Origin: Pseudoxanthomonas suwonensis
Lineage (GTDB): Bacteria > Pseudomonadota > Gammaproteobacteria > Xanthomonadales > Xanthomonadaceae
Direction of reading: 5' to 3'
DNA: 64,000 nt
Assembly (NCBI RefSeq): GCF_000972865.1
Contig: NZ_CP011144.1
Span: 1,116,001-1,180,000 of the forward strand
This document shows, piece by piece, positions 20,163 through 51,090 of the stretch. Each line of letters starts with the position of its first letter. Positions within the stretch are counted from its first letter, which is position 1. The notes beneath the pieces are model-generated. The model saw only the letters and a program-made list of their open reading frames with translations, ran no database searches and had not been told where the DNA came from. The translations under genes were made by a program, and so were the position numbers.

Positions 20163-20361
20163 GCAACAGCAATGGCAATGGCAACGGCGACAGCAACATC
20201 AACAGCAACATCAACAGCCAGAGCGCCGGGCGTGCCCGGCTTCGGGCTGAGCCGCGGCAGGCCAGGTGTGTTGCGGTCGTCTCGGCGGCACATCCCTGTG
20301 CCGACTCGCCGACGCGGCCATCCCTGGCCGCTGCCGCAACACACCTGGCCTGCCACGTCTT
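20163..20361 (-). repeat. Composite structured element A (hexamer tract + inverted repeat with two internal hairpins)
   Basis: Hexanucleotide-like tract at 20163-20218 (units related to CAACAG/CAATGG). Then comes a conserved spacer, then 21-bp inverted-repeat arms at 20256-20276 and 20334-20354, perfectly complementary, around a 57-nt core. The core holds hairpins GGCACA-TCCC-TGTGCC-like and CGGCCA-TCCC-TGGCCG. Related copies lie at 39030 (B), 50890 (C) and 50465 (D); A is inverted relative to B and C. No coding potential is evident. It occupies part of the 844-bp gene-free stretch between cysK and pepP. Confidence 0.85.
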
Positions 20362-20438
20362 CGGCGCGCGTCCAGGTCGTGGCTTCGTCATCGCCAACGG
20401 CCTGCCGGCTCCGTTCGTCGCCCGACGACCTGCTCTTG

Positions 20439-20535
20439 TGTAGGAGCCGGGCTTGCCCGCGTCGCGACGCCGTAGGCACAGGCGACACCTTCATGATTCC
20501 GACGCCCGTGTCGCCGACTGAAGTCAGCTCCTACA
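20439..20535. repeat. GTAG REP pair
   Basis: 97-bp unit beginning TGTAGGAGCCGGGCTTGCCC and ending GAAGTCAGCTCCTACA, with the shared interior GGCACAGGCGACACC. Left and right arms belong to different arm types and pair only near the ends. Confidence 0.9.
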
Positions 20536-20558
20536 GAAGAGCGGCGGCGGCGCGGCTG

Positions 20559-20660
20559 TTGTAGGAGCCGGGTTCAGCCGGCAACCCGACGCCGTCGGCA
20601 CAGGCGTCGTCCTCCGCTGTTCGATGCCCGCACGACGGCCTCCGGTCGCGGGAGCCAATG
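20559..20660. repeat. Degenerate GTAG REP pair; remainder of the cysK-pepP gap
   Basis: Left half TTGTAGGAGCCGGGTTCAGC and interior GACGCCGTCGGCACAGGCG are good; the right half is eroded (ends CGCGGGAGCC). From 20660 to 20890 I see no gene, RNA or clear terminator, only a T-rich run (20851-20858). Confidence 0.65.
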
Positions 20661-20890
20661 AGCCTTTCGGGGCCTGGTGCTTCCATGCCAGCCAATAGAA
20701 GCCGCGACCTGGAAGCCACCCGAGGCCGAAGCGATGCTCTTGCCTGACAGGCGACGGCTTCACGCCAAGCCAATGCCCTGCCTCGCAGTGGCAGCGGCCA
20801 TCGACCGCAGAAACCGGGTTGCCTTCCCACGCAGTTGGGCGAAGAACCTTCTTTTTTTTCCTACAAGCAAAAGGAGGGCCAGGCGGGCGC

Positions 20891-22219
20891 TCAGCGCGCC
20901 GCCATGAACGCCTCGATCTCGTCGGCCGAGCGCGCCAGGCCGTCGGTCAGCACCCGGTGGCCGTCGCCGGTGACCAGCACGTCGTCCTCGGTGCGGATGC
21001 CGATGCCGCGCCATTTGGCCGCCACCGACTTGTCGTCGGCGCCCACATACAGGCCCGGCTCGATGGTCAGGACCATGCCCGGCTCCAGCAGTCGCGGCTC
21101 GCCGTCGATCCGGTAGTCGCCCACGTCGTGCACGTCCAAGCCCAACCAGTGTCCGCTCTTGTGCCGGTAGAAGCGCTTGTAGTGCTCTTCGGCGATGTTC
21201 TTCTCCAGCGAGCCCTTGAGCAGCCCAAGCCGCAGCAGGCCCTCGGTCAGGGCCTCCACCGCCGCGCCATGGATCGCCGAATAGGCCACCCCCGGGCGGG
21301 CGCAGGCCAGGGCCGCGGCCTGCGCGGCGCCGACCAGGTCGTGCAGCGCCCGCTGCTCCTTGCCGAAGCGGCCGTTGACCGGGAAGGTGCGGGTGATGTC
21401 GGCGGCGTAGTTGCGGTATTCGGCGCCGGCGTCGATCAGGACCAGGTCGCCATCCTTCGCCTGCGCACTGTTGGCCACGTAGTGCAGCACGCAGCCGTTG
21501 GCGCCGGCGCCGACGATGCTGCCGTAGGCCGGACAGGCGTCGGCGGCGCGGAACACGCGCTCGACCTCGGCCTGCAGCTCGTACTCGTGGATGCCCGGGC
21601 GCGCGGCGCGCATCGCCGCCTGGTGCGCGTGCACGCTGATGTCGGCGGCGCGCTGCATCAGCCGGATCTCGTCCTTGGACTTGAACAGGCGCTGCTCGTG
21701 CAGCAGGTGGCCCAGTTCCAGGAACTCGTGCGGCGGCTGCGCGCCGTGCCGGACCTGGGCGCGAACGCGGTTGACCCAGCCGATCAGCTTGAGGTCGAAC
21801 TCGGCGTCGCGGCCGAAGTGGTAGTAGACCCGCGAACGGCCTTCCAGCAGGCCGGGCAGGATCTCGTCGAGGTCGTCGATCGGGTAGGCGTCATCCATGC
21901 CGTAGTCGGCGACGGCGCCTTCCTGGCCGGCTCGCGGCCCGTCCCAGCCCTCGCGCTCGGGATCGCGCTCGCGGCAGAACAGCAGCGCCTCGCCGTGCTT
22001 GCGGCCTGGCACCAGCACCAGCACCGCCTCCGGCTCGGGGAAGCCGCACAGGTACCCGAAGTCCGAGTCCTGCCGGTACGGGTAGTGGGTGTCATGGCTG
22101 CGCACCCGCACCGGCGCGGCCGGCAGCACCAGGATCGCGTCGTCGCCGGCCATGCGCATCAGCTGGCGGCGGCGGCGCGCGTACTCGCCCGCGGAGATGC
22201 CGGTAAGCGAGCGCAACAT
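20891..22219 (-). CDS. pepP: Xaa-Pro aminopeptidase
   Basis: Dinuclear-metal aminopeptidase releasing N-terminal residues before proline. 442 aa. N-terminal domain with 'DTHYPYRQDSDFGYLCGFPEPEAVLVL'. The C-terminal pita-bread domain has all metal ligands: Asp in 'VLIDAGAEYRNYAADITRTF' (two Asp), His in 'SGHWLGLDVHDVG', Glu in 'LTIEPGLYV' and 'GIGIRTEDDVLV'. It starts 1 nt after the UPF0149 gene stop; the ygfB-pepP pairing is the same in E. coli, where ubiH follows, but here a repeat-filled gap follows instead. Confidence 0.95.
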   Translation of the reverse strand: MLRSLTGISAGEYARRRRQLMRMAGDDAILVLPAAPVRVRSHDTHYPYRQDSDFGYLCGFPEPEAVLVLVPGRKHGEALLFCRERDPEREGWDGPRAGQEGAVADYGMDDAYPIDDLDEILPGLLEGRSRVYYHFGRDAEFDLKLIGWVNRVRAQVRHGAQPPHEFLELGHLLHEQRLFKSKDEIRLMQRAADISVHAHQAAMRAARPGIHEYELQAEVERVFRAADACPAYGSIVGAGANGCVLHYVANSAQAKDGDLVLIDAGAEYRNYAADITRTFPVNGRFGKEQRALHDLVGAAQAAALACARPGVAYSAIHGAAVEALTEGLLRLGLLKGSLEKNIAEEHYKRFYRHKSGHWLGLDVHDVGDYRIDGEPRLLEPGMVLTIEPGLYVGADDKSVAAKWRGIGIRTEDDVLVTGDGHRVLTDGLARSADEIEAFMAAR

Positions 22220-22220
22220 G

Positions 22221-22769
22221 TCAGTTCAGGGTGCGGCGGTGGCGCGGGCCGAGCACGCAGTCGCCGTGCAGCAGCAGCGCGGCGACGCGGACGAACTCCT
22301 CCAGCTCGGACAGGGCGGACTCGTCCTCCTCCTCGTCCTCGTCGATCTCCTGCACGCTGGCCCCGGCCAGGCGGGCCAGGTCCTGCAGTGCCTCGGCGCC
22401 CTCCTCCGACAGCGGCGGCTGCGCGCCGGCGGCCAGGCCGAAGCCGCCGAGGAAGCTGCGGCACCAGTCGAACAGGCCCTGCGCCCGCTGGCGCAGCGGC
22501 TGGTCGTCGTCGCCCAGCAGCAACTGGAAGGAGAATTCGCCGTCGGCCAGCTGGGTCGCGGTGGCCTGGCGCAGGCGGTCCAGCGCGCTGCCGGAGGGCG
22601 GCGCCGGCGCCGCCGGATCGGCCAGCACCCGCGCCAGCCAGGCGGCCGTATCCTCGCCGCCGCCGGCGAGCCAGCCGCAGAGACTGCCGTGCAATTCCGG
22701 GACGGTCGCGCCCAGTTCCAGCGCGCGGCTGGCTTCGGCGACCTCATCGGCGGTGGGGAGTTGGGGCAT
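22221..22769 (-). CDS. UPF0149 family protein (YgfB-like)
   Basis: 182-aa all-helical protein from ATG 22769 (MPQLPTADEVAEASRALEL). Family features: 'ELHGSLCGWLAGGGED' near residue 30, 'FLGGFGLA' in the middle, a strongly acidic run 'EIDEDEEEDESALSELEEFVRVAALLLH' and a short basic end. YgfB-type proteins are small and poorly characterised; in some gammaproteobacteria they affect antibiotic tolerance or ribosome-related stress. It is directly upstream of pepP, the conserved gammaproteobacterial arrangement. Confidence 0.85.
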   Translation of the reverse strand: MPQLPTADEVAEASRALELGATVPELHGSLCGWLAGGGEDTAAWLARVLADPAAPAPPSGSALDRLRQATATQLADGEFSFQLLLGDDDQPLRQRAQGLFDWCRSFLGGFGLAAGAQPPLSEEGAEALQDLARLAGASVQEIDEDEEEDESALSELEEFVRVAALLLHGDCVLGPRHRRTLN

Positions 22770-22952
22770 GCGGATCCGGGAAGTGCGACGGAGGACCCGG
22801 CCGATTGTAGCAACCGCAACCCTCGCCACCGCTTGTCGGCGTTCCCCGGCCATGCCTACACTCGCGTGGATCGCCCATCACGACCCGCATCCCATGCCGT
22901 CCGACGTCGCTGCGCGATACCGCAAGACAGGACCCCGCCGGACCGGCTGCCG

Positions 22953-25115
22953 ATGACTGCCGCACTCATGGCCATCGCCGCGGGACTGACGATAGCGGTC
23001 CTGCTGCTGCTTTGGCGCTGGCGCAACAGCCACCTGCGGCAACACGAAGCGCTGCGGGCGCGCGAGGAACACCTGACGGTGGCGCTGTGGGGCTCGGGCG
23101 AGCAGTTCTGGGACTTCGACCTGGCCCGGCGCGAACTGCACCTGCTGCACGCCGACGAGTCCGAACCGCACCTCGGGCTCGGCCTGACCGTGACCAGCCG
23201 GTTGGCCTCGCTGCCGCTGGTCCACCCGCACGACCGCCCCAGCCTGCGCCGGCGCCTGCGCGCGCACCTGCGCGGCCGCGACCCGCTGTTCACCTCCGAG
23301 CACCGGGTCGATCCGGACGGCGACGGTAACTGGGTCTGGATCCGTGTCCACGGCCGCACCGTCGAGCGCGACGCCCGCGGCCACCCGCGGCGCCTGGCCG
23401 GCACCGCGCGCGACACCACCGCCAACCGCCACGCCGAGGCCGAGCGGCGCATCGCCAGCGAGGTGCTGCGCAGCATGAGCGAGGCGGTGGCGGTGCTGGA
23501 CCGCGAGCTGCATTTCGTCGCGGTCAACCCGGCCTTCAGCCAGATCACCGGCTACAGCGACGTGGAGGCGCTGGGCCGCCCTTTCACCATGCTCGACAGC
23601 GACCACAGCGAGGGCCGCGGCAGCACACTGGGCCAGGACCTGGGGCGCCAGCACTGGCAGGGCAACGTCTGGATGACCCGCCGCGACGGCGAGGAGATCC
23701 TCTGCCACGTCAAGCACAACGCCATCCCCGACGCCGGCGGCGAGATCAATTTCCACGTGGTGGTGCTGAGCGACATCACCGAGCAGAAGCGCGCCGAACA
23801 GGAACTGCGCTACCTGGCCAACTACGACGCGCTGACCAGCCTGCCCAACCGCTCGCTGCTGTCCGAGCGCCTGGCCCGGGCGATCGTGCGGGCGCGTCGC
23901 GAGGGCGGCCACGTGGCCGTGCTGTTCCTGGACCTGGACCGGTTCAAGGACGTCAACGACTCGCTCGGCCACGCCACCGGCGACCGGGTCCTGCGCGCGG
24001 CAGCCGAGCGGGTGCAGCACGCGGTGGGCCCGCAGCACACGGTCGCGCGCCTCGGCGGCGACGAGTTCACCGTGGTCCTGGAAGGGCTGGCCACCGCGCA
24101 GGAGGCCGAGCACGTGGCGCAGCGGGTGATCGAGTCGTTCTCGCTGCCGCTGACCCTGGACGAGCACCACGAGATCACCGTGTCGCCGTCGATCGGCATC
24201 AGCCTGTTCCCCGACCACGCGCAGGTGCCGACCGAACTGCTCAAGCACGCCGACACCGCGATGTACCAGGCCAAGGCCGCCGGCCGCCGCACCTGGCAGG
24301 TGTACTCGGCCAGCATGGACGAGGCCACCCGCCGCCGCGCCACCCTGGCCGGCCTGCTGCGCCGGGTGGTCGAGCGCGACGAGCTGACCCTGGTCTACCA
24401 GCCGCGCTATTCGCTGCACGAGCAGCGGGTGGTCGGCGCCGAGGCACTGCTGCGCTGGCGCCACCCGGAGTTCGGCCTGGTCCCGCCGGACCAGTTCATC
24501 CCGCTGGCCGAGGACACCGGGCTGATCCTGGAGATCGGCGAATGGGTGCTCAAGGAAGCCTGCACCACCCTGCGGCAGTGGCAGAGCGCAGGCCTGGACG
24601 GCATGCGGATGTCGGTGAATGTCTCGGCGATCCAGCTGCTGCGCGGCGACCTGGCCAGCACCCTGGCCCGGATCCTGGCCGAGACCGGGGTGGCCTCCGG
24701 CCAGCTGGAGCTGGAACTGACCGAGAGCGCGATCATGGCCAACGTCGGCCGCAGTGCCAGCGTGCTGCATGCCTGCCGCGCCCTCGGCGTGGGTGTGGCG
24801 GTGGACGATTTCGGCACCGGCTACTCCTCGCTGGCCTACCTGAAGCGGCTGCCGCTGACCACGCTGAAGATCGACCAGGAGTTCGTCGGCGACCTGACCC
24901 GCGACCCGGACGACGAGGCCATCACCAGCACGGTGATCGCCATGGGCCACTCGCTTTCGCTGACGGTGGTGGCCGAGGGCGTGGAGACCGCCGGCCAGCT
25001 CAAGTTCCTGCGCGACCATGGCTGCGACGAGGTCCAGGGCCATTACATCGCCGCGGCGATGGACCGCGATGCATGCATGGCCTTCCTGTCGCGCCCGGCG
25101 ATGGTGCCGGCGTAG
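22953..25115 (+). CDS. PAS-GGDEF-EAL c-di-GMP signalling protein
   Basis: 720 aa from ATG 22953. Layout: one N-terminal membrane helix ('LMAIAAGLTIAVLLLLW', 6-22), a PAS_3-like sensor (about 40-165), a second PAS (about 170-285; 'AVLDRELHFVAVNPAFSQITGYSD'), GGDEF (about 290-450) and EAL (about 470-715). The cyclase A-site is intact ('RLGGDEF', 366-372), but no RxxD inhibitory site lies five residues before it. The EAL part keeps 'EALLRW', 'NVSAIQL', 'ELTES', 'DDFGTGYSSL', 'KIDQEF' and 'VAEGVET', so phosphodiesterase activity is expected. Both activities look possible; the PAS domains probably decide the balance. It is not part of an operon and is divergent from the UPF0149 gene. Confidence 0.93.
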   Translation: MTAALMAIAAGLTIAVLLLLWRWRNSHLRQHEALRAREEHLTVALWGSGEQFWDFDLARRELHLLHADESEPHLGLGLTVTSRLASLPLVHPHDRPSLRRRLRAHLRGRDPLFTSEHRVDPDGDGNWVWIRVHGRTVERDARGHPRRLAGTARDTTANRHAEAERRIASEVLRSMSEAVAVLDRELHFVAVNPAFSQITGYSDVEALGRPFTMLDSDHSEGRGSTLGQDLGRQHWQGNVWMTRRDGEEILCHVKHNAIPDAGGEINFHVVVLSDITEQKRAEQELRYLANYDALTSLPNRSLLSERLARAIVRARREGGHVAVLFLDLDRFKDVNDSLGHATGDRVLRAAAERVQHAVGPQHTVARLGGDEFTVVLEGLATAQEAEHVAQRVIESFSLPLTLDEHHEITVSPSIGISLFPDHAQVPTELLKHADTAMYQAKAAGRRTWQVYSASMDEATRRRATLAGLLRRVVERDELTLVYQPRYSLHEQRVVGAEALLRWRHPEFGLVPPDQFIPLAEDTGLILEIGEWVLKEACTTLRQWQSAGLDGMRMSVNVSAIQLLRGDLASTLARILAETGVASGQLELELTESAIMANVGRSASVLHACRALGVGVAVDDFGTGYSSLAYLKRLPLTTLKIDQEFVGDLTRDPDDEAITSTVIAMGHSLSLTVVAEGVETAGQLKFLRDHGCDEVQGHYIAAAMDRDACMAFLSRPAMVPA

Positions 25116-25135
25116 CCACCCCGGCCGCTGTTCTT

Positions 25136-25230
25136 GTGAGGCAGGCGGCCTTGCGACACGACGCCGTCGGCACAGGCGACGACCTCACCACCCCGAAGCC
25201 CGGGTCGCCAGCAAGCTGGGGTGCTACAGA
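25136..25230. repeat. Degenerate GTAG REP pair
   Basis: Starts with an eroded end (TGAGGCAGGCGGCCTTGCGA), keeps the interior GACGCCGTCGGCACAGGCGA, and ends AGCTGGGGTGCTACA. First of three consecutive copies filling the gap between the c-di-GMP gene and the ZapB-like gene. Confidence 0.7.
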
Positions 25231-25250
25231 AGGCGGCCGCGCCAAGTTGC

Positions 25251-25347
25251 TGTAGGAGCCGGGTTCAGCCGGCGACCCGACGCCGTCGGCACAGGCGACG
25301 ACCTCCTGATCCCGACGCCCGTGTCGCCGGCAAACTGGGCTCCTACA
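25251..25347. repeat. GTAG REP pair
   Basis: TGTAGGAGCCGGGTTCAGCC at the left, interior GTCGGCACAGGCGACGACC, right end AAACTGGGCTCCTACA. Second of three consecutive copies. Confidence 0.9.
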
Positions 25348-25367
25348 AGAGCTTGCGCCGCTGCGTC

Positions 25368-25461
25368 GTAGGAGCCGGGTTTGCCCGCGACCCGAGTGTC
25401 GGCGCAAGCCACGCCCCCCGTCATCCCGACGCCCGTGTCGCCAGCGAGCTAGGCTCCTACA
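25368..25461. repeat. GTAG REP pair
   Basis: GTAGGAGCCGGGTTTGCCCG at the left, a diverged interior (GTGTCGGCGCAAGCCACG), right end GAGCTAGGCTCCTAC. Third of three; nothing else is seen between 25116 and 25604. Confidence 0.88.
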
Positions 25462-25604
25462 CGGGGAAACCGCCGCCGTCGCAGGGACCGGTCCTGCCGG
25501 CGCACACCGCGCCGGTGCCTCCGGCGGCGGCCGTGACGCCGGCACCGGCACGCGCCGGCCGCGCCGCTTGACCGGGCAACCGGGCGCTGCCTATCGTGGC
25601 CGCC

Positions 25605-25829
25605 ATGGACGCCCCCTCCGAAGCCATCGCCCAGCTCCGCGCCCTCGCCGCGCGGGTCGAGGCGCTGGCCGAACGCTGCCAGCGGCTGGCGGACGAGAAC
25701 CGCAGCCTGCGCCAGCAGCAGGAACAGCTGTTCGCCGAACGCGCCCAGCTGCTCGGCAAGAACGAGCAGGCGCGCTCGCGGGTGGAGGCGATGATCGCGC
25801 GGCTGAAGTCGCTGGAGCAGCACACGTGA
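25605..25829 (+). CDS. ZapB-like small coiled-coil protein (TIGR02449 type)
   Basis: 74 aa from ATG 25605: MDAPSEAIAQLRALAARVEALAERCQ... It is a continuous coiled coil with heptad-spaced Leu/Ala and many Gln/Glu/Arg, ending 'MIARLKSLEQHT'. Matches the TIGR02449 family of small coiled-coil proteins found directly upstream of zapA in xanthomonads. A role in cell division is inferred from this context and the ZapB-like build. Its stop overlaps the zapA start (GTGA), indicating translational coupling. Confidence 0.8.
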   Translation: MDAPSEAIAQLRALAARVEALAERCQRLADENRSLRQQQEQLFAERAQLLGKNEQARSRVEAMIARLKSLEQHT

Positions 25830-26131
25830 GCAACCACAGCGAGCCGGTCGGCGTCCGCGTCCTCGACCGCGAGTACACCGTCGGCGTCAGCGCCGAGGAA
25901 CGCGACGGCCTGCTCGCCGCCGCGCGCCTGCTCGACGCGCGCATGCGCGAAGTGCGCGGCAACAACCGCATGGTCGCACTCGACCGGGTCGCGGTGCTGG
26001 CCGCGCTCAACCTGGCCCACGAGCTCCAGCAGCTGCGCCAGGAGCGCGACGCGCAGCAACGCGAACTGGCCGTCACCCTGGAAACGCTGAACCAGCGCCT
26101 CGACGGCCTGCTCGGCACCACCGCCGGCTGA
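25826..26131 (+). CDS. zapA: Cell division protein ZapA
   Basis: 101-aa FtsZ-ring stabiliser. N-terminal beta part 'EPVGVRVLDREYTVGVSAEERDGLLAAARLLDARMREVR', then a long C-terminal helix for dimer/tetramer coiled coil ('LAALNLAHELQQLRQERDAQQREL...'). GTG start at 25826 overlaps the preceding stop. The following 6S RNA and fau genes reproduce the widely conserved zapA-ssrS-fau order. Confidence 0.92.
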   Translation: MSNHSEPVGVRVLDREYTVGVSAEERDGLLAAARLLDARMREVRGNNRMVALDRVAVLAALNLAHELQQLRQERDAQQRELAVTLETLNQRLDGLLGTTAG

Positions 26132-26233
26132 ATGCGCGACAACCCATAGACGCCGTCTTGCGACGCTGAACCGGGCATTGCCGATTTCTTCTCCCGCACC
26201 GACGGACGGGCTAGGCAGTCGCAATGCGGGCGC

Positions 26234-26239
26234 TATAAT
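26234..26239 (+). promoter_or_regulatory. -10 box of the 6S RNA promoter
   Basis: A perfect TATAAT lies 8-10 nt before the inferred 5' end of 6S RNA. No good -35 hexamer is seen at 17 bp (CTAGGC). Confidence 0.75.
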
Positions 26240-26246
26240 CCGCCTG

Positions 26247-26429
26247 CGTTCTCTGCCGTGTGCGACAGCTGGCAAAACATTCGCCTTGTCCCTTAAAAAC
26301 GACACCGGGGAAGCGACGACGCCGGGGGTGCATGTCCGCCACGCAGCGGAAAGCCCGATGGTTTCCCAGCTTTCCCACTTGGACCTCGGGTTCAAGGTCG
26401 TTTCGCCGCATCGGCATGGTGGAGAATGC
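26247..26429 (+). ncRNA. ssrS: 6S RNA
   Basis: About 183 nt, located between zapA and fau, the standard place for ssrS. The 5' end TTCTCTGCCGTGTGCG (from 26249) can pair with the 3' end GCATGGTGGAGAATGCC (to about 26430), forming the closing stem. Near the 3' end, CCTCGGGTTCAAGGTCGTTT and CGCCGCATC match conserved gammaproteobacterial 6S segments. 6S RNA mimics an open promoter and sequesters sigma70-RNA polymerase in stationary phase. Exact ends are estimates based on the promoter and closing stem. Confidence 0.9.
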
Positions 26430-26430
26430 C

Positions 26431-26470
26431 TTTTTTCCGACGACGCCTCCCCCGGGAGGCGTCGTCGTTT
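26431..26470 (+). terminator. T-run and strong hairpin after 6S RNA
   Basis: TTTTTT at 26431-26436 directly follows the 6S closing stem. It is followed by a 13-14 bp nearly perfect hairpin (arms 26438-26451 and 26454-26467, CGACGACGCCTCCC type) and TTT. Either may end or process the 6S transcript before fau. Confidence 0.65.
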
Positions 26471-26474
26471 CCAA

Positions 26475-26544
26475 GGGCATCTAAAAAGGGGTCAGGTACA
26501 TTTTCCTTTGTGGGAAAATGTACCTGACCCCTTTTTAGATGCCC
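26475..26544. repeat. Palindromic element, AAGGGGTCAG family, copy 3
   Basis: 32-bp arms (26475-26506 and 26513-26544) are perfectly complementary with a 6-nt loop TTTGTG. Shared outer part AAAAAGGGGTCAG; inner stem GTACATTTTCC. The symmetry extends outward (GGGCATCT / AGATGCCC). The right arm ends 2 nt before the fau ATG, so the region where its ribosome-binding site should be lies inside the stem. Confidence 0.92.
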
Positions 26545-26546
26545 CG

Positions 26547-27149
26547 ATGACCCAGGACCGCGCCACGCTGCGCCGCGAACTGCGCCAACGCCGCCGCGAG
26601 TTGCCCGCCGCCGCGCGCATCGCCGCGGCCGAATCGCTGGCGCAGCGGATCCTCGCCCTGCCGTTCCTGCCACGCGAGGGCTACGTCGCCGGCTACTGGG
26701 CGCTGGACGGCGAGATCGGCCTGCACGTACTGCAACTGCGCCTGCCGCCCGGGCTGGTGTACTGCCTGCCGGTGCTGCACGGCGACGACACCCTGCGCTT
26801 CGCGCCGTGGCGCGCGGGCGATCCGCTGGTGACCAACCGCTACGGCATCCCCGAGCCTGACGTCGAACCGGCCTCGGGACTGCGCGCGGAGGAACTGGCG
26901 CTGGCGGTGATGCCGCTGGTGGGTTTCGACGCGCGCGGCCAGCGGCTGGGCATGGGCGGCGGTTGGTATGATCGCAGCTTCGCGTTCCGCAGCGGCCGCG
27001 CCGCGCCGCCCTGGCTGGTCGGCGCCGGGTTCGCGGTGCAGCAGGTGCCGGCGCTGGAAGCGGCCGCCTGGGACATCGTGCCGGACGCGATCTGCACCGA
27101 GGACGCCACCCTGCTCCGCGCCCCCCACCGCGAGACCGATCCCGCATGA
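26547..27149 (+). CDS. fau: 5-formyltetrahydrofolate cyclo-ligase
   Basis: Converts 5-formyl-THF to 5,10-methenyl-THF using ATP. 200 aa from ATG 26547. N-terminal 'RATLRRELRQRRRELPAAARIAAAESLAQRIL'; substrate and ATP segments 'GYWALDGEIGLHVL', 'YGIPEP', and the Mg-ATP loop 'GFDARGQRLGMGGGWYDRSF', the family signature. A perfect palindrome occupies the immediate upstream region, so translation initiation may be unusual. The stop overlaps the next gene's ATG. Confidence 0.93.
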   Translation: MTQDRATLRRELRQRRRELPAAARIAAAESLAQRILALPFLPREGYVAGYWALDGEIGLHVLQLRLPPGLVYCLPVLHGDDTLRFAPWRAGDPLVTNRYGIPEPDVEPASGLRAEELALAVMPLVGFDARGQRLGMGGGWYDRSFAFRSGRAAPPWLVGAGFAVQQVPALEAAAWDIVPDAICTEDATLLRAPHRETDPA

Positions 27150-27616: not shown

Positions 27617-27625
27617 GCATCACCT

Positions 27626-27771
27626 CGTCGTTCCGGCGAACGCCGGAAGCGCTTTACAGCAGCCGAAGGGCTGACCAACCAGCGACCTGCCGCACCGGTG
27701 GAGACGCGACCCGTCGCCAGCGGAGCGATGGCGCAAAGGCACCGGGTCCCGGCGTTCGCCGGGACGACGGC
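27626..27771. repeat. Inverted repeat with CCGGCGAACGCCGG-type ends
   Basis: Left arm 27626-27646 (CGTCGTTCCGGCGAACGCCG) is nearly complementary to 27751-27771 (CCGGCGTTCGCCGGGACGAC). The 100-bp interior has no coding signal. It fills the 207-bp gap between the EVE gene and rpiA. The pattern resembles dispersed genomic repeats in high-GC proteobacteria. Confidence 0.65.
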
Positions 27772-27823
27772 GGGATAGGATCGCCGGCAACCCAGCACAC
27801 GAACAACCACAGCAGACTGACCC

Positions 27824-29151: not shown

Positions 29152-29251
29152 ACACCGCTCAACCCGCGCCCGCGCCCGCCGATACCGGAACTGGACGGGA
29201 CTTGATTGCCGCGCGCGCCAGCCCCAGTCTTGCCGCATGGGGAATCGAAGT

Positions 29252-38956: not shown

Positions 38957-39029
38957 GAGCGGCGCGGGCGGCGCAACGACGGCTGTTGCTCGTGGCGGTG
39001 AACGGAGCTACGGCCAAGAAGCGCCCCTA

Positions 39030-39189
39030 AGACGTGGCAGGCCGGGTGTGTTGCGGCAGCGGCCAGGGATGGCCGCGTCGGCGAGTCGGCACACGGATGT
39101 GCCGCCGAGACGACCGCAACACACCCGGCCTGCCGCAGCTCAGCCCGAAGCCGAACACCCCACACGCTCTGGCCGTTGCCGTTGCCGCT
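39030..39189 (+). repeat. Composite structured element B
   Basis: Perfect 21-bp arms at 39036-39056 (GGCAGGCCGGGTGTGTTGCG plus G) and 39114-39134. The 57-nt core has hairpins CGGCCA-GGGA-TGGCCG and GGCACA-CGGA-TGTGCC. The shared tail CAGCTCAGCCCGAAGCC is followed by a short hexamer tract (GTTGCC units, 39171-39187). Same orientation as copy C, inverted relative to A and D. Confidence 0.87.
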
Positions 39190-43425: not shown

Positions 43426-43510
43426 CCGTCCGCAGTTTCCGGGTCCCGGAGTCAGGACGCCGGCGCGAGGCCGGGCGTTAACACGGTCCGCGACCGTCCG
43501 CGGCCCGTGC

Positions 43511-44361: not shown

Positions 44362-44479
44362 CGTCGTGTCTCCCGGCGGTCGTCAGGTGGCGGCCAGCAT
44401 AGCCGGGTCGCCGGGCAGGGCCCGCCGTCCAGGTGGCGGTTTTGCATCCGGCCGGATCCTGACCTGGCGCCTTGCTGTT

Positions 44480-44616
44480 TGTAGGAGCGGGCATGACCGC
44501 GACCCGACGACATCGGCACAGGCGACGCCCTCATGGTTCCGACACCCGGGTCGCGGTCATGCCCGCTCCTACAAACACCGCGATACGACGGCGTCGGCAC
44601 AGGCAACACCCCCTAC
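44480..44616. repeat. GTAG REP pair plus a half copy
   Basis: 44480-44573 is a matched-arm copy of the same subtype as 31354 and 50760 (TGTAGGAGCGGGCATGACCG ... GCTCCTACA). A half unit follows at 44580-44616 (CGACGGCGTCGGCACAGGCA) joined to CCCCCTAC, which provides the TAG stop of the SDR gene. Confidence 0.85.
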
Positions 44617-45434
44617 CCGTCCAGGAACAGGTCCGGCAGCAGTGGCTGGGAGGGATCGACGGCGTAGCCGGACAGGTCGGTCACGCCGGCCTCGGCCAGC
44701 ACCTCGTCGTCGATCAGGAAGCGGCCGCTGAAGCCGGGCGCCGGCCGCACCAGCACCGCGTGCGCGGCGTCGGCCATGATCTCCGGGCGGCGGCCGTTGG
44801 CGGTGCTCACGCCCGGGATCATGTTCAGCGCGTCGGTGCCGATCAGCGTGCGCGGCCACAGCGCGTTGACCGCCACACCCTGCGCGCCGAACTCGGCGGC
44901 CAGGCCCAGGGTCACGAAGCTCATGCCCATCTTGGCCAGGGTGTAGCCGGTGTGCGGGCCCCACCACTTCGGGTCCAGCGACGGCGGCGGCGCCAGGGTC
45001 AGGATGTGCGGGTTGGGCGCGGCCAGCAGGTGCGGCAGGCAGGCCTGCGCGCACAGGAAGCTGCCGCGCGCGTTGACCTGCTGCATCAGGTCGAAGCGCT
45101 TCATCGGCGTGTCCAGGGTGCCGCGCAGCCAGATCGCGCTGGCGTTGTTGACCAGGATGTCGATCCCGCCGAAGGCGTCGACCGTGGCCGCCACCGCCGC
45201 GCGCACCTGGTCTTCCTCGCGGATGTCGCACTTCAGCGCCAAGCCCTGGCCGCCGGCGGCGTTCACCGCCTCGGCCGCGCTGTGGATGGTGCCGGGCAGC
45301 CTCGGGTTGGGCACCGAGGACTTGGCGGCGATGGCCACGTTGGCACCGTCGCGCGCCGCGCGCAGGGCGATGGCCAGGCCGATGCCGCGCGAGGCGCCGG
45401 TGATGAACAGGGTCTTGCCGGCCAGGGACGTCAT
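44613..45434 (-). CDS. Short-chain dehydrogenase/reductase (HSDL2-like)
   Basis: 273 aa. NAD(P)-binding 'FITGASRGIGLAIALRAARDGANVAIAAKSS', 'DILVNNASAIWLRGTLDTPMKRFDLMQQVNARG', and a catalytic Tyr-x3-Lys 'GYTLAKMGM' preceded by a region ('ILTLAPPPSLDPKWWGPHTGYT') typical of the HSDL2/'SDR with SCP2' branch. A substrate such as a fatty or steroid-like alcohol is not readable. The stop TAG lies in a degenerate REP end. Confidence 0.9.
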   Translation of the reverse strand: MTSLAGKTLFITGASRGIGLAIALRAARDGANVAIAAKSSVPNPRLPGTIHSAAEAVNAAGGQGLALKCDIREEDQVRAAVAATVDAFGGIDILVNNASAIWLRGTLDTPMKRFDLMQQVNARGSFLCAQACLPHLLAAPNPHILTLAPPPSLDPKWWGPHTGYTLAKMGMSFVTLGLAAEFGAQGVAVNALWPRTLIGTDALNMIPGVSTANGRRPEIMADAAHAVLVRPAPGFSGRFLIDDEVLAEAGVTDLSGYAVDPSQPLLPDLFLDG

Positions 45435-45516
45435 GCTTCCACCTCGTTCTCCACCACGGGCGCGTCCTCCGGACACGGAGGCCGCGTGGCATTGTCGGCG
45501 CGATCCTCGCCCACGC

Positions 45517-46176
45517 TCAAGGCTGTGGCCCGCGGCCCTCGTTGTCCTCCCAGCCCAGCAGGCGCCGGGTGACGAAGCGGTAGACCGGCTTGCCGGTGGC
45601 GAACCACAGTCCGCGCACCCACGAAGGACGCGCCAGCAGGCGGCGCTCCACCGGCGTGAGCGATCCGCCGCAATAGGTGCGCTTGTGCTTGAGCAGGTGG
45701 CGCAGGTCCTCGCGCGCGAGCAGGCGCATCCAGCGCGAACGCGGATCGCCGCGCACGGCCAGCTGGAAGTCGATCAGTGCCGGGGTGCCGTCGTCCAGCA
45801 CCAGCCAGTTGGCTTCCTTGGCCAGGTCGTTGTGGACGATGCCGCGGCGATGCACCTGCTGCAGCAGGCGGCGCGCGGCATGGAAGTAGGCCGGGTCGCG
45901 GTGCGGCGGCCGCTGGTAGAGGACGTGTCCGCCCAGGAAACTGCGGTCCAGCCGCGCGCCGTCCCAGGCGAGCAGGTCGGGGGTCGCCGGCAGCCCGGCC
46001 AGCGCACGCAGGGCCGCCGCCTCGCGCCTGGCCAGCGAACGCGCGATGGGCCGCGTCCACCACGGGGACGCCGTCCAATCCCGGCGGATGTAGGCGCGTC
46101 CGGCTTCGCGCACCAGCAGGATGGCCCCGAACGTGTCGGATTTCAGCGGCTCGATGGTCTGTTCGTATTCGGGCAT
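45517..46176 (-). CDS. RIO/lipopolysaccharide-kinase-like small protein kinase
   Basis: 219 aa from ATG 46176. It has a compact kinase fold with catalytic loop 'GIVHNDLAKEANWLVLDDG' (Asp and Asn in place) and metal-binding 'ALIDFQLAVRGDPRS' (IDF instead of DFG). The N-lobe is short, 'FGAILLVREAGRAYIRRDW'. Similar proteins are annotated as RIO1-like or LPS core/3-deoxy-manno-octulosonate kinase relatives; phosphorylation of a lipid-linked sugar is possible but not shown. It is divergent from the DedA-PAP2 gene. Confidence 0.75.
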   Translation of the reverse strand: MPEYEQTIEPLKSDTFGAILLVREAGRAYIRRDWTASPWWTRPIARSLARREAAALRALAGLPATPDLLAWDGARLDRSFLGGHVLYQRPPHRDPAYFHAARRLLQQVHRRGIVHNDLAKEANWLVLDDGTPALIDFQLAVRGDPRSRWMRLLAREDLRHLLKHKRTYCGGSLTPVERRLLARPSWVRGLWFATGKPVYRFVTRRLLGWEDNEGRGPQP

Positions 46177-46318
46177 CGCGCAATTGTAGGTCCCGCGGCG
46201 AGGACACGAGCGGCCGGCGGCCCATGCCGGCCACCGCGAACGGCGAAGCGCCTGCGCGGCTCGCCGCGCTGCGGGGATCCCGGCCGGTGGTTTAGTCGGG
46301 ATCCATGGGTGGGCCACC

Positions 46319-46324
46319 TATAAT
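46319..46324 (+). promoter_or_regulatory. -10 box for a nearly leaderless mRNA
   Basis: TATAAT ends 8 nt before the ATG at 46333, so the transcript would start at or within a few bases of the start codon. No SD fits between. The -35 region is weak (TTTAGTC/TCGGGA). Confidence 0.65.
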
Positions 46325-46332
46325 CCACACCC

Positions 46333-48333
46333 ATGGAATCCTCCTGGATGGACGCCGTACTGGCCTGGATCGGGAACCACCCCGTCCTCGCCGGCGCGGT
46401 GATCTTCGCCATCGCCTTCTGTGACGCGCTGATCGTGGTCGGCGCGATCGTGCCCGCGTTGCCGCTGCTGTTCGCGGTGGGCGTGCTGATCGGCATGGGC
46501 GAGATCTCCGGCCCGTACGCGGTGGCCTGCGCCACCCTGGGCGCGTTCCTCGGCGACGGGCTGAGCTTCTGGGTCGGGCGACGCTGGGGCAACCGGCTGT
46601 ACGGGGTGTGGCCCTTCAGCCGCTACCCGCAGCTGCTCGGCCGCGGCGAGATCCTGTTCCGGCGCAACGCCTTCACCAGCATCCTGGCGGCCCGCTACGT
46701 CGGCGCGGTCCGCCCCTTCGTCCCGGCGATCGCCGGCATGGCGGGGATGCCGCTGCGCCGCTACGCCTTCGCCAGCGGCCTGGCCTGCCTGTCCTGGGGC
46801 GTGCTGTTCCTGGCGCCGGGCTGGGTGCTGGGCCGCGCCTACGACGCGGTGGCCGCGGTGGCCGGCCACCTGGTGATCGTGCTCGGCCTGCTGCTGGCGG
46901 TGCTGGCGCTGGCCTGGGCCTGGGTGCTCTACACCTACCGCTGGTTCGCCGACCACGCCGACTCGCTGCTGGCGCGCGCGCTGGACTGGTCGCACCGGCA
47001 CCCGGTGCTGGGCCGGCATTCGGCCGCGGTGTTCGACCCGACCCATCGCGAGTCGGCCTCGCTGGCCCTGCTCGCGGTGCTGCTGCTGGCGATCGGCTGG
47101 GCCTGGTTCGCGCTGCTGGTGGCGGTGGTCGGCCACGGCGAGCCGCTGGCGATGGACCTGGCCGTGCACCAGATGATGCTGGCGCTGCGCAATCCGCTGG
47201 CCGACTACCCGCTGGCGGCGCTGGCCTCGCTCGGCGACTGGCCGGTGCTGGCCCCGGCCTGCCTGGCGGTGCTGGGGTATTTCCTGTGGCGGCAGCGCTG
47301 GATGGCCGCGGCGCACTGGCTGGCCGCGCTGGCCTTCGGCTTGGCCCTGACCTGGCTGCTGGGCAACACCGTCGAGGTGGTGCGTCCGCCCGGGGCCAGC
47401 AGCGGCTTCGGCTTCCCCTCGATCGCGGTGACCATGACCACCATCGCGTTCGGCTTCTTCGCGGTGCTGATCGCGCGCGAGTTGCCCGGCCGCGACCGGG
47501 TCTGGCCCTACCTGGTCTCGGGCGTGACCGTGGCGGTCATTGGTTTTGCCCGCCTGTACCTGGGCGCGCACTGGCTCAGCGACGTGGTCGGCGGGATGCT
47601 GCTGGGCATCGTCTGGCTGCTGGTGCTGGGGATCGCCTACCGGCGGCGCTTCAACCGCTCGTTCTGGGTCAAGCCGGTGGCGTGGATCTTCTACGGCACC
47701 TTCGTCGTGGCGGCGCTGTGGTACGCGCCGCGCAACATCGAGGCCAAGCTCGACAAGTTCGAACCGCCGCCGCCACTGCCGGTCGTGCAGGACCTGGAGG
47801 ACTGGTGGAGCCACGAATGGATGCTGCAGCCGGCGCGGCGCAACGAGTTCGACGACGCGTTGCGCTGGCCGCTGGACGTGCAGGTGGCCGGCCCGCTGGC
47901 GCCGCTGCGCGCGCGGCTGGAGGCGGACGGCTGGCGGGTGCAGCCGCAGGCGCGCTGGGAGCAGGCGATCAGCCTGTTCGACACCGACAGCGAGCCGGCG
48001 CAGGTGCCGGTGCTGCCGGCCACCCTGGAGGCGCGCACCGAGGCCCTGCTGATGGTCCGCGATGAAGCGGGCGGCGACCTGCGCCACGTGTTGCGGCTGT
48101 GGCCCACCCCGGTGCACCTGCAGCCGGGCGGCGTGCCGCTGTGGGTGGGCACCGCGCAGACCCTGCAGTTCCGGCACGATTTCGGGCTGCTGGTGACATG
48201 GCGCCCGCTGTCGGGTGCCGACCCGGCGCTGGAACAGGTGCTGGCCCCGCTGCGCGACCTGCCGCACGCGGTCGCACCGCACCCGGAATCGGGGCTGCCG
48301 GTGCTGCGCGTGCGCAGCGACGGCATCGAATAG
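46333..48333 (+). CDS. DedA-PAP2-LssY three-domain membrane protein
   Basis: 666 aa. Residues 1-200 are a DedA/SNARE-associated domain ('LGAFLGDGLSFWVGRRWGNRLYGVWPF', 'RYVGAVRPFVPAIAGMAGMPLRRY'). Residues 245-445 are a PAP2-like membrane phosphatase domain. Residues 460-666 are a soluble LssY-type C-terminal domain. PAP2 motif C3 is intact ('RLYLGAHWLSDVVGG', about 407-421). C1 lacks the usual Lys ('NTVEVVRPP') and C2 reads 'GFPSIAVTM' without the catalytic His. DedA proteins flip undecaprenyl or other phospholipids, so lipid-carrier recycling is a reasonable role; hydrolysis is doubtful. Probably transcribed without a leader. Confidence 0.87.
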   Translation: MESSWMDAVLAWIGNHPVLAGAVIFAIAFCDALIVVGAIVPALPLLFAVGVLIGMGEISGPYAVACATLGAFLGDGLSFWVGRRWGNRLYGVWPFSRYPQLLGRGEILFRRNAFTSILAARYVGAVRPFVPAIAGMAGMPLRRYAFASGLACLSWGVLFLAPGWVLGRAYDAVAAVAGHLVIVLGLLLAVLALAWAWVLYTYRWFADHADSLLARALDWSHRHPVLGRHSAAVFDPTHRESASLALLAVLLLAIGWAWFALLVAVVGHGEPLAMDLAVHQMMLALRNPLADYPLAALASLGDWPVLAPACLAVLGYFLWRQRWMAAAHWLAALAFGLALTWLLGNTVEVVRPPGASSGFGFPSIAVTMTTIAFGFFAVLIARELPGRDRVWPYLVSGVTVAVIGFARLYLGAHWLSDVVGGMLLGIVWLLVLGIAYRRRFNRSFWVKPVAWIFYGTFVVAALWYAPRNIEAKLDKFEPPPPLPVVQDLEDWWSHEWMLQPARRNEFDDALRWPLDVQVAGPLAPLRARLEADGWRVQPQARWEQAISLFDTDSEPAQVPVLPATLEARTEALLMVRDEAGGDLRHVLRLWPTPVHLQPGGVPLWVGTAQTLQFRHDFGLLVTWRPLSGADPALEQVLAPLRDLPHAVAPHPESGLPVLRVRSDGIE

Positions 48334-48343
48334 CCGGCGCCGG

Positions 48344-48949
48344 CTATTCCTCGTCCAGCCACTCCAGTACCCGGTCCAGGCGCCGGTGCGGATCGTCCTC
48401 CTGCAGCAGCGCCAGGCGCTGCTCGTCGGTGACCGGCAGCAGCTCGGCCAGGCGCCAGCCGACCCAGGACGCATCCTCGAGCTGGCGCAGGTTGGCGCTG
48501 GCATGCCCCAAAACGGGATGCACGCCGCCGACCTTCTCCAGCAGCTCGCCCAGCAGCGTGGCCAGCATCGCGTGCTGCGGCTGCAGCGGCGCGGCGGCCG
48601 GTCCGTCGCACCACTGCACTTCGCCGACCAGCAAGCCGTTGTCGCGCACCCGCGTGCGCGCCACGCGGAAGCGGCGCACGCCGCGCACCTGCAGGGTCAG
48701 CAGGCCGTTGCGGTCGTTGCCGAAGTCCTCGATCCGCGCCTCCACGCCGAACGCCGCCGGCGTCGCCGGCACGCCGACCTCCTCGCCCTCCAGGATCAGG
48801 CAGACGCCGAAGCCGCGGCCGCTACGGCCGCACTCGGCGACCAGGTCCAGGTAGCGGCGCTCGAACACGCGCAGGCCCAGCGGCGCGCCGGGCAACAGCA
48901 CGGTGTGCAGGGGGAACAGCGGCAGCGCTTCGGTGGCGGTCACGGGCAT
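48344..48949 (-). CDS. Lon N-terminal (substrate-binding) domain protein
   Basis: 201 aa, stand-alone LON/PUA-like domain without ATPase or protease parts: 'LPLFPLHTVLLPGAPLGLRVFERRYLDLVAECGRSGRGFGVCLIL' and 'GNDRNGLLTLQVRGVRRFRV'. The C-terminal half is helical ('LLGELLEKVGGVHPVLGHASANLRQLEDASWVGWRLAELLPV'). Such proteins are common next to cell-wall and adk genes in xanthomonads; function unknown. Convergent with the DedA-PAP2 gene (10-nt gap). Confidence 0.88.
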   Translation of the reverse strand: MPVTATEALPLFPLHTVLLPGAPLGLRVFERRYLDLVAECGRSGRGFGVCLILEGEEVGVPATPAAFGVEARIEDFGNDRNGLLTLQVRGVRRFRVARTRVRDNGLLVGEVQWCDGPAAAPLQPQHAMLATLLGELLEKVGGVHPVLGHASANLRQLEDASWVGWRLAELLPVTDEQRLALLQEDDPHRRLDRVLEWLDEE

Positions 48950-49011
48950 GCGCGGGCGGCGGGTTCTACTTCAGGTTAGCGCGCCGCGCCCGGCCGTGGG
49001 TCATGGCGCCG

Positions 49012-50421
49012 TCAAACGGCGGACCGGCCGGCGAGCATGGCCACGAACCGGCGCGGCGCGCCGTCGAAGCCGCCGTTGGACATGAACACGACATGGTCAC
49101 CGGGCCGCACCGCCTCGCGCAGCGCGTCCAGCAGCGCGCCGGTGTCGGACGCGGTGCGCGCCTGGCCGCGCACCGCGGCGACCACCTTGCCGGCGTCCCA
49201 GGCCAGTTCCGGCCGGTGCAGGAACACCACCGCATCGGCCAGGTCCAGCGACGGCGCCAGCGCCCCGGCGTGCGCGCCCAGCCGCATCGAATTGCTGCGC
49301 GGCTCCATCGCCACCACGATCCGCGCATCGCCGACCCTGGCACGCAGGCCCTCCAGCGTGGTGCGGATCGCGGTGGGGTGGTGGGCGAAATCGTCGTACA
49401 CGGTCACCCCGCCCTGCGTGCCCAGCACCTCCAGCCGGCGCTTGACGCTGGCGAAGCCGGCCAGCGCCGGGATCACCTGCGCCGGCTCCACCCCGACCGC
49501 ATGCGCGGCGGCCAGCGCGGCCAGCGCGTTCATGACGTTGTGGCGGCCCACCAGCGGCCAGCGCAGCGTGCCCACGTCCTGTCCGCGATGCAGCACGATG
49601 AAGGCGCTGCCGTCGGCCTCGAGCAGGCGCGCGCTCCAGTCGAAGCCCGCGCCGCCGTCGGCGCGCGGGATCGCCACCGCCGCATCGTCCAGACCAAAGG
49701 TTTCCACCGGCGTCCAGCAGCCCATCGCCAATACTTCGGCCAGGTGCGCGTCCTCGCCGTTGACGAGCAGCCGGCCGCGGCGCGGCACCGTGCGCACCAG
49801 GTGGTGGAACTGGCGCTGGATCGCGGCCAGGTCCGGGAAGATATCGGCGTGGTCGTACTCGAGGTTGTTGAGGATCGCCACCGTCGGCCGGTAGTGGACG
49901 AACTTGCTGCGCTTGTCGAAGAACGCGGTGTCGTACTCGTCGGCTTCGACCACGAACTCGCGCCCGCCGCCCAGCCGCGCGGAGGTGCCGAAGTCCTCGG
50001 CCACCCCGCCGATCAGGAAGCCCGGCTCGCGTCCGGCCGCCTGCAGCAGGAACGCGAGGATGGTCGTGGTGGTGGTCTTGCCGTGGGTGCCGGCCACCGC
50101 CAGGGTGGTACGCCCGGGCAGCACGCGCTCGGCCAGCCACTGCGCGCCGGAGGTGTAGCGGCGGCCGTCATCCAGCACCTGCTCGACGGCGGGGTTGCCA
50201 CGCGAGAGGGCGTTGCCGACGACGACCTCTTCCGCGTCGGCGGAGATATTCTCCGGCAGGTAGCCCTGCCTCAGCTCGATGCCCAGCTGCTCCAGCTGGG
50301 TGGACATCGGCGGGTACACCGCCTGGTCGCTGCCCTCGACCTCGAAGCCCAGCTCGCGCGCCAGCGCGGCGACGCCACCCATGAAGGTCCCGGCGATGCC
50401 GAGGATGTGGATCTTGCTCAT
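49012..50421 (-). CDS. mpl: UDP-N-acetylmuramate:L-Ala-gamma-D-Glu-meso-DAP ligase
   Basis: Murein recycling ligase attaching the recovered tripeptide to UDP-MurNAc. 469 aa, Mur-ligase fold: N-terminal 'KIHILGIAGTFMGGVAALARELGFEVEGSD' (UDP binding), P-loop 'VAGTHGKTTTTTILAFLL', 'VVEADEYDTAFFDKRSKFVHYRP' (Mpl-specific), 'AILNNLEYDHADIFPD', 'VYDDFAHHPTAI' and 'EPRSNSMRLG'. The 'DEYDTAFFDKRSKF' stretch separates Mpl from MurC. The upstream gap of 741 bp is full of repeats. Confidence 0.95.
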   Translation of the reverse strand: MSKIHILGIAGTFMGGVAALARELGFEVEGSDQAVYPPMSTQLEQLGIELRQGYLPENISADAEEVVVGNALSRGNPAVEQVLDDGRRYTSGAQWLAERVLPGRTTLAVAGTHGKTTTTTILAFLLQAAGREPGFLIGGVAEDFGTSARLGGGREFVVEADEYDTAFFDKRSKFVHYRPTVAILNNLEYDHADIFPDLAAIQRQFHHLVRTVPRRGRLLVNGEDAHLAEVLAMGCWTPVETFGLDDAAVAIPRADGGAGFDWSARLLEADGSAFIVLHRGQDVGTLRWPLVGRHNVMNALAALAAAHAVGVEPAQVIPALAGFASVKRRLEVLGTQGGVTVYDDFAHHPTAIRTTLEGLRARVGDARIVVAMEPRSNSMRLGAHAGALAPSLDLADAVVFLHRPELAWDAGKVVAAVRGQARTASDTGALLDALREAVRPGDHVVFMSNGGFDGAPRRFVAMLAGRSAV

Positions 50422-50464
50422 GCGGCGATTGTCGCTGATGCGGTGTGGGTTTGGCAGGCGGGGG

Positions 50465-50670
50465 CGGAGCAGGAGCGGGAGCGGGAGCAAGGGCAAGGCC
50501 AAGGGCGCTGGCTTCGGCCGGGGCCGCCGTGCCCAGGGGGTCTGGCGCATCGCTCCGCTGCGGCGTCCTGCCTCCGAGTCGCGAACGCAGCACATCCCTG
50601 TGCTGCTTGCGCCAGACCCCCTGGACACGACGGCCTCGGGAGCTTTGGGGGCATGGCTTCGATTAGTGGA
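50465..50670 (-). repeat. Composite structured element D (divergent relative)
   Basis: Same architecture as A-C with a different stem. Hexamer-like tract 50465-50506 (GGGAGC/GGCAAG units), spacer with GCTTCGGCCGGGGC, perfect 17-bp arms at 50533-50549 (CCAGGGGGTCTGGCGCA) and 50608-50624, and a 58-nt core with an AGCACA-TCCC-TGTGCT hairpin. Beyond the arms, CTCGGGAGCTTTGGGGG matches, in reverse, the outer flank of copy C (CCCCAAAGCTCCCGA). C and D face each other around a REP in the mpl-adk gap. Confidence 0.75.
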
Positions 50671-50759
50671 GCAACGGCAACCGCAAAAGCACTCCTCCCC
50701 GGCCCTCCCCTTCGCCTGCGGCAAACGGGAGGGAGCAAGCCCGCGACGGCGCCGCTTTC

Positions 50760-50853
50760 TGTAGGAGCGGGCATGACCGCGACACGGGCGTCGGAATCAC
50801 GGGGGCGTCGCCTGGACCGACGGCGTCGGGTCGCGGTCATGCCCGCTCCTACA
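50760..50853. repeat. GTAG REP pair
   Basis: Matched arms TGTAGGAGCGGGCATGACCG and GGTCATGCCCGCTCCTACA. It lies between the two composite elements C and D. Confidence 0.92.
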
Positions 50854-50889
50854 AAAAGCCGTTCGCTGCTCAACGCCTGCGAACGGAGC

Positions 50890-51090
50890 CACGACCCCAA
50901 AGCTCCCGAAGACGTGGCGGGCCGGGAGTATTGCGGCAGCGGCCAGGGATGGCCGCGTCGGCGAGTCGGCACATGGATGTGCCGTCGAGACGACCGCAAT
51001 ACTCCCGGCCCGCCGCGGCTCAGCCCGAAGCCAACCACATCCGGCGCTCTTGACCTTGCGGTTGCGGTTGCGGTTGCGGTTGCGGTTGCC
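50890..51090 (+). repeat. Composite structured element C
   Basis: Perfect 21-bp arms 50916-50936 (GGCGGGCCGGGAGTATTGCG plus G) and 50994-51014. The 57-nt core is almost identical to that of B. The shared tail CGGCTCAGCCCGAAGCC is followed by six near-perfect hexamers (GTTGCG) at 51055-51090. Relative to B, four arm positions differ and each is compensated on the opposite arm. The hexamer tract ends 15 nt before the adk terminator. Confidence 0.88.

Follow-up and report, generated by a model that had tools for sequence, protein, structure and literature searches.

Within a 64,000-nucleotide (nt) stretch of Pseudoxanthomonas suwonensis DNA (positions 1116001-1180000 of the host's 3.89-Mb single contig, NZ_CP011144.1; hereafter the window), four repeats, A, B, C and D, belong to a single structured family. 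Stems that covary across genera close a fold with two near-invariant GGA loops, and the modules lie between genes and form divergent pairs. As far as can be judged from sequence models, the kind of RNA is already known, namely TwoAYGGAY, a candidate CsrA-binding RNA, and what is new here is a high-copy, dispersed and paired repeat form of a TwoAYGGAY-like RNA. We consider it fairly probable that these TwoAYGGAY-related modules act together as a sponge on which RsmA (CsrA) docks.

The window copies and their parts are listed below, numbered from the first letter of the window; scores are those of our covariance model R1, and rows with no score were read from the letters directly.

50908..51032, plus strand: copy C, a module with a long stem, a three-way junction, two GGA hairpins and the conserved tail CCGAAGCC (133.1 bits, E 6.9e-27).
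50945..50950, plus strand: loop of C hairpin 1, AGGGAT, of the A(N)GGA type.
50973..50978, plus strand: loop of C hairpin 2, ATGGAT, of the A(N)GGA type.
50510..50637, minus strand: copy D, a module with C's fold and the divergent partner of C, with loops CAGGGATG and AGGAC (69.8 bits, E 8.4e-13).
50761..50852, unstranded: inverted pair of repetitive extragenic palindromes (REPs), REPIN-like (GTAGGAGC ... GCTCCTAC), at the centre of the D/C unit.
51056..51089, plus strand: (TTGCGG)n hexanucleotide tract at the outer end of C.
50465..50495, unstranded: degenerate repeat tract at the outer end of D.
20238..20362, minus strand: copy A, a C-type module with arms GTGTGTTG and C's fold (132.0 bits, E 1.2e-26).
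39028..39152, plus strand: copy B, a C-type module with arms GTGTGTTG and C's fold (131.1 bits, E 1.9e-26).

The alignment behind R1 comprises 20 C-type sequences, of which 4 come from the host (A, B and C among them) and 16 from relatives. D was left out and no sequence was of the D type, and this single model recovers all four copies. An earlier note on this DNA had placed four copies here, each with a three-way junction and two inner hairpins; all four were found at its positions, and the junction was borne out. Its shared plan holds in that the copies belong to one family, but A runs in the reverse orientation. D, which it took for a more distant copy, does have the same fold but is the opposite-strand partner of C, with which it makes up a roughly 600-bp unit. 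The hexanucleotide tract that it assigned to every copy is clear in C and short in B, but mixed in A and degenerate in D. Its description did not include the GGA loops, the pairing of C with D or the central REP pair. Three of the four hairpins in the C/D unit present CANGGATG, and D hairpin 2 presents CAGGAC.

The 201-nt stretch of C folds at -113.8 kcal/mol (z -5.4), with none of 200 shuffles as low, and D folds at -95.8 kcal/mol (z -8.7). The reverse complement of the C stretch reaches -113.9 kcal/mol, therefore folding energy is uninformative on the strand, as both strands of C fold nearly equally well.

A search of the whole host genome with the C-type hairpin 2 pattern, allowing up to three mismatches, gave 79 places (none with the reversed-pattern control), and the D-type hairpin 1 pattern gave 40. 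The earlier note had said that few or no further copies would count against its family, which is not what the genome holds. When four mismatches were allowed in the fetched stretches, six more D-type copies appeared, in which the stem GCAGC is swapped for GTGGC with GCCAC, a compensated change. At E <= 1e-4, R1 detected 132 modules in 474 kb (the window plus 78 stretches around copies): 79 of the C type and 53 non-C modules, which are D-like. R1 also recovered a third module type in the host (L099, E 1.3e-12) and modules in other genera.

The arms of the host C copies were tallied in 70 of the 79, nine being dropped for indels or replaced tails. This gave 2920 Watson-Crick cells, 98 G.T, 45 A.C and 17 others, and a single position, which is unlikely to be a genuine pair, accounts for 34 of the 45 A.C cells. 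Swapped pairs recur: one arm site is TA in 40 copies, AT in 20, GC in 8 and CG in 1, and a second is GC in 40 and AT in 30. The compensation that the earlier note proposed from A, B and C is therefore also seen in additional copies; its statement that differing arms stay exactly complementary holds for those three but fails in some others.

Covariation extends across genera. In the sequence-based alignment A2, 82.8% of cells are paired (shuffled mean 70.2, slid at most 46.6), 29 of 42 pairs vary on both sides, and the covariation score is 0.342 (shuffled 0.147, slid at most 0.111). Alignment A4, comprising 68 modules at E <= 1e-6, has 91.5% of cells paired, 39 of 41 pairs varying on both sides and a covariation score of 0.680 (shuffled 0.167, slid at most 0.088); as it was fitted to R1, it leans towards the model. 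The covariance model and covarying-pair count that the earlier note had called for thus show stems that covary across genera. Together with loop letters that hardly vary and a tandem G-A step that is conserved, this argues for selection on the fold. Counted on the GGA strand, with one doubtful pair column dropped per alignment, G.U cells exceed A.C cells (44 against 20 in A2, 119 against 38 in A4), and this excess leans towards folding of that strand.

The earlier note had left room for arm-to-arm copying. Arm complementarity could be kept by template switching or gene conversion, between arms or between copies, with no selection for the fold. Homogenisation or re-insertion does occur, as the copies at one studied site, described below, resemble others of their own genome in the host, G203 and G113. 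However, copying alone is insufficient, because the GGA loops are fixed while nearly all A4 pairs change on both sides. Nor does it account for the tandem GA, for the compensated changes of the short inner hairpins or for a plan shared by many genera, and we regard it as very improbable.

GGA is present in both loops of all 68 A4 modules, and both loops fit A(N)GGA in 65 of them; 125 of the 132 host modules retain GGA at both places. In the aligned host C copies, 67 of 70 have an intact GGA at hairpin 1 and all 70 at hairpin 2. The letter before GGA is variable, being T in 33, G in 35 and A in 2 at hairpin 1, and C in 30, G in 23, T in 16 and A in 1 at hairpin 2. At the base of hairpin 2, G-A stands opposite G-A in 54 of the 68 A4 modules. 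Hairpins of the ANGGA type bind CsrA/RsmA, and two of them on one RNA can hold one dimer; the modules carry ANGGA in hairpin loops, with two such sites per RNA. The RsmE site has been described as ANGGAN in a hairpin loop, and the consensus from systematic evolution of ligands by exponential enrichment (SELEX) with CsrA as RUACARGGAUGU (PMC7652899). The csrA gene was found in 58 of 60 genomes searched from the host's bacterial family, and the single host copy has L4 and R44.

A gathering-level Rfam scan of the window returned 6S RNA as its sole match (RF00013, 26247-26429, plus strand, 95.2 bits), and no window score for CsrB/RsmB (RF00018) or the other Rfam Csr small RNA families was above cut-off. 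For TwoAYGGAY (RF01731) the gathering cut-off of 43 bits is exceeded by modules of relatives at L138 (46.1 bits) and L272 (46.0 bits), the former of which also scores 109.9 bits with R1. Matches below the cut-off came from L275 (42.0 bits), a second L138 copy (39.1), L164 (37.5) and L143 (35.3). Looser scans covered 28 sources including one E. coli control, whose csrB scored 380 bits, and RF01731 was reported in 5 of 27 sources. Over 99 genomes of the bacterial family, 23 match RF01731 at E <= 0.01, two of them above cut-off, compared with none of 14 control genomes. From the E. coli csrB scan, RF01731 and CsrB share clan CL00106. Weak Rfam matches to sX6, Ysr224, naRNA4, STnc40 and plant miRNAs were judged to be chance or neighbouring sequence.

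From the RF01731 matches of relatives' modules and the clan shared with CsrB, the kind of RNA would therefore be a known one. TwoAYGGAY was described as probably an RNA, found in human gut, gamma-proteobacteria and Clostridiales (Weinberg et al., PMC2864571), and Gardner and Eldai (2014) mention tandem GA in its stem and propose CsrA binding as a testable hypothesis (PMC4333381). The modules resemble it in having a closing stem with two hairpins whose loops read A(Y)GGA(Y), in the tandem GA of a stem and, for some relatives' copies, in a score above gathering. They differ in that the window copies score below the cut-off and any of T, G, C and A may precede GGA. The AYGGAY loops are thus present in both hairpins in the form A(N)GGA, but not with a strict Y before GGA, as C hairpin 1 (AGGGAT) illustrates. 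The modules are also a high-copy dispersed repeat in divergent pairs, a trait that the available text of PMC4333381 and PMC2864571 does not mention. The view of the earlier note that the element has no name is right for the dispersed paired repeat, for which we found none, but not for the fold, which matches a named family.

A divergent C on the opposite strand lies no more than 1 kb from 46 of the 53 non-C host modules; one has its C on the same strand, six lack a C within that distance, and there is no convergent arrangement. For some of the 79 C copies no partner was found. In relatives, at E <= 1e-3, 20 distinct loci carry a divergent pair (L178 and L189 being omitted as repeats of the L164 and L179 sites), three a same-strand pair (L138, L148 and L183) and none a convergent one. 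Because the modules of a pair face apart, transcription from either side reads one module in the GGA sense. Pair centres in the host measure 142-517 nt and hold an inverted REP pair in 44 of 46 cases, and in relatives they are as short as 56-60 nt.

The pairs can be compared with REPs and REPINs, which are likewise high-copy intergenic palindromes, and with DNA-level mobile elements in general. According to such a reading, the inverted hairpins near the unit ends would be recognised as single-stranded DNA by a transposase, either a REP-associated tyrosine transposase (RAYT/Y1) or another, and the RNA would be functionless. This fits the high copy number and dispersal, and the presence or absence of units at the adk-mpl site between genomes of one genus. 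It also fits the orientation of C, which tracks the replichore in 57 of 79 copies (p 1e-4), as in elements that use single-stranded DNA at forks. Furthermore, the host has two Y1 transposase genes, one of which (L052, 2795476-2795802 of the host contig, plus strand) has several REP pairs on both sides. Since these resemble the REPs in the unit centres, it is a candidate RAYT for the REP pairs of the units. However, no transposase gene was seen in the units, and the GTAG tag is present in the central REP pair but absent from the modules of the window copies, which are also larger than REPs. The 56-60 nt centres of relatives' pairs are a further difference, and only one strand carries loops that match CsrA sites, loops that are kept while the stems vary. 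A purely DNA-level element is therefore, in our judgement, rather unlikely. A weak R1 match beside a Y1 gene (23.6 bits) is probably REP structure.

The replichore bias is strongest in the GTATTG-arm subfamily (30 of 35, against 27 of 44 for the other C copies) and is absent from predicted genes (173 of 353). The replichore split was assumed at half the contig, with the skew changing sign near 2 Mb; as the skew does not settle which end is the origin, the sense of C relative to the fork is not fixed.

Gene contexts were taken from a simple codon-usage gene finder, not from annotation. All 79 host C copies are intergenic, 30 in convergent, 46 in tandem and 3 in divergent gaps. Within the stretches analysed, gaps of 100 nt or more were compared: convergent ones make up 33 of the 85 with an element and 12 of the 102 without one (Fisher 3e-5), and divergent ones 4 of 85 and 33 of 102 (Fisher 9e-7). 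Among gaps of at least 250 nt, the convergent enrichment is at 0.016 and the divergent depletion at 0.011. This preference for convergent and tandem gaps, together with the very stable stems, would also be expected of REP-like 3'-end elements that stabilise transcript ends, help terminators or supply nucleoid RNAs independently of CsrA. Stability, however, requires neither fixed GGA in both loops nor a conserved tandem GA, no T tract follows the window modules, and the terminator at C/D belongs to the neighbouring gene. We therefore regard this explanation as improbable.

For the RsmA sponge that we prefer, we infer transcription by read-through, RsmA docking and titration. Read-through from a neighbouring gene, for instance, would transcribe the GGA strand, and with transcription from either side each pair would yield one GGA-presenting module. 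A transcribed module could dock one RsmA/CsrA dimer across its two hairpins, and the summed transcripts would titrate RsmA as a distributed sponge, while the modules could also tether RsmA to the untranslated regions (UTRs) of many mRNAs. The units may spread as mobile or hitchhiking repeats; most host pairs hold a REP pair.

CsrB, CsrC, RsmX, RsmY and RsmZ likewise have GGA hairpin loops; binding of CsrA/RsmA is known for them and would be expected of the modules. They differ in being a few dedicated genes with many GGA sites each, whereas the modules have two sites and many scattered copies. In Xanthomonas, rsmA is present and no CsrB/RsmXYZ homologue was found by BLAST (PMC7694677); a distributed sponge would, hypothetically, fill that vacancy. 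Another RNA for comparison is RsmU, an RsmA-binding RNA of 77 and 117 nt from the comEA 3'-UTR of Xanthomonas campestris (PMC7694677). Like the modules it belongs to the host's bacterial family, and it is 3'-UTR-derived. It differs in being a single locus, described in that source as limited to Xanthomonas, and the comparison is one of description, not of sequence. Our search of open-licence papers found no dispersed CsrA-binding repeat in this bacterial family. A bolder and more tentative extension, which we consider possible at best, is that in this bacterial family back-to-back modules placed behind genes form a self-spreading, genome-wide CsrA sponge that replaces a CsrB-like small RNA gene, with RsmA titration reading out transcription past gene ends across the genome.

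Several observations weigh against the sponge. A tally of the pair types at each site of the host C copies puts G.U only 13 to 11 ahead of A.C, and strand-biased mutation could be the source of the G.U excess. GGA has been lost from 7 of the 132 host modules. The module stems are longer than most of the SELEX hairpin stems, which mostly have four or fewer base pairs (PMC7652899). Host copies never reach E 0.01 with RF01731 in a scan of the host genome, and the window copies stay below the cut-off. In tandem settings, C is antisense in 28 cases and sense in 18. A promoter scan of the C/D unit found no sigma-70-like promoter, and the terminator of the upstream gene (51109-51141, minus strand) precedes the unit; read-through at C/D is for these two reasons an assumption. 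Finally, changing all four GGA motifs of RsmU abolished neither its binding to RsmA nor the effect of its overexpression (PMC7694677), therefore GGA is not the whole story in Xanthomonas.

TwoAYGGAY has been an orphan candidate RNA for which CsrA binding was proposed (PMC4333381), and one genome now offers more than 100 natural variants of a TwoAYGGAY-like module. If the modules bind, the regulator would have a dispersed repeat as its sponge, and the number of copies would be one of the settings of global post-transcriptional control.

Gain and loss were followed at the site between genes that we take, from their sequence, to be adk and mpl, in 15 genomes of the same genus. Eleven loci reach adk: three have same-orientation divergent pairs (G203, G215 and G113), one has tail remnants (L293) and seven are without a module, with gaps of 57-272 nt. 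Of the four loci that stop short of adk, G155 has a match cut by the locus end and three have none. In the host (0.92), G203 (0.95) and G113 (0.87), the copy at the adk site is closer to a copy elsewhere in its own genome than to its orthologs, compared with 0.60-0.81 between species. G215 is an exception, at 0.77 to its own other copy and 0.78-0.81 to the host and G203. As adk-site copies resemble those of their own genome, either repeated insertion of units behind the adk terminator or homogenisation of copies has taken place. Among the mpl loci of named genomes, 32 searched of 80 gave only one weak match, at E 0.03.

Across a panel of 60 genomes of the bacterial family, mostly one per genus, R1 gave matches at E <= 0.001 in 14, with 57 in the host (all of those scored there), 23 in G057, 16 in G044, 11 in G005, 9 in G055 and further ones in others. 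One module collection used 45 of the 59 R1-search sources, leaving out matches weaker than E 1e-6, and five repeated sequences among the first 98 module rows were dropped. A DNA search with C, scoring two candidates per genome, matched in 57 of 297 genomes of the bacterial family; many of the weaker matches are the GGA hairpin only, and a few (L147, L160) resemble coding sequence. Judged by the protein encoded next to D, the two closest named relatives belong to Lysobacter (84 and 81% identity), followed by other Lysobacteraceae. Plasmid and phage records searched with the C/D unit gave no match.

A C copy also lies about 340-390 nt downstream of the host csrA gene (L051, 2044-2168, minus strand). 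A link to csrA was considered and set aside as probable chance, since none of 29 relatives' csrA loci has a module in the fetched flanks.

Among C copies with GTGTGTTG arms (window copy A; L075, L104, L115 and L117), several units end in inverted GGTTCTTC[GT]CC...GGC[CG]AAGAACC-like sequences, and these inverted ends adjoin A or T tracts, as if inserted at terminators. A miniature inverted-repeat transposable element of the ISL3 type was considered for units with GGTTCTTCGCC-like ends and rejected, as the host gave no match to PF01610 and the flanks showed no clear target duplication; an ISL3 transposase could have been lost from the host, which would keep the old copies. Outside some D modules, for example at L040, L041 and L045, the D tail (CACGGC...CCGAAGCC...GCGCTTTTGC) is tandemly repeated.

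In genomes of genus g7, of about 3.5-4.8 Mb, a different dispersed element with GGA hairpins was observed (L149, L158 and L161), which at L161 has a TTGCCG-like tract with AGGAA and ATGGAT loops. These elements match R1 weakly (E 5e-5 to 0.03) and are possibly another branch of the same kind.

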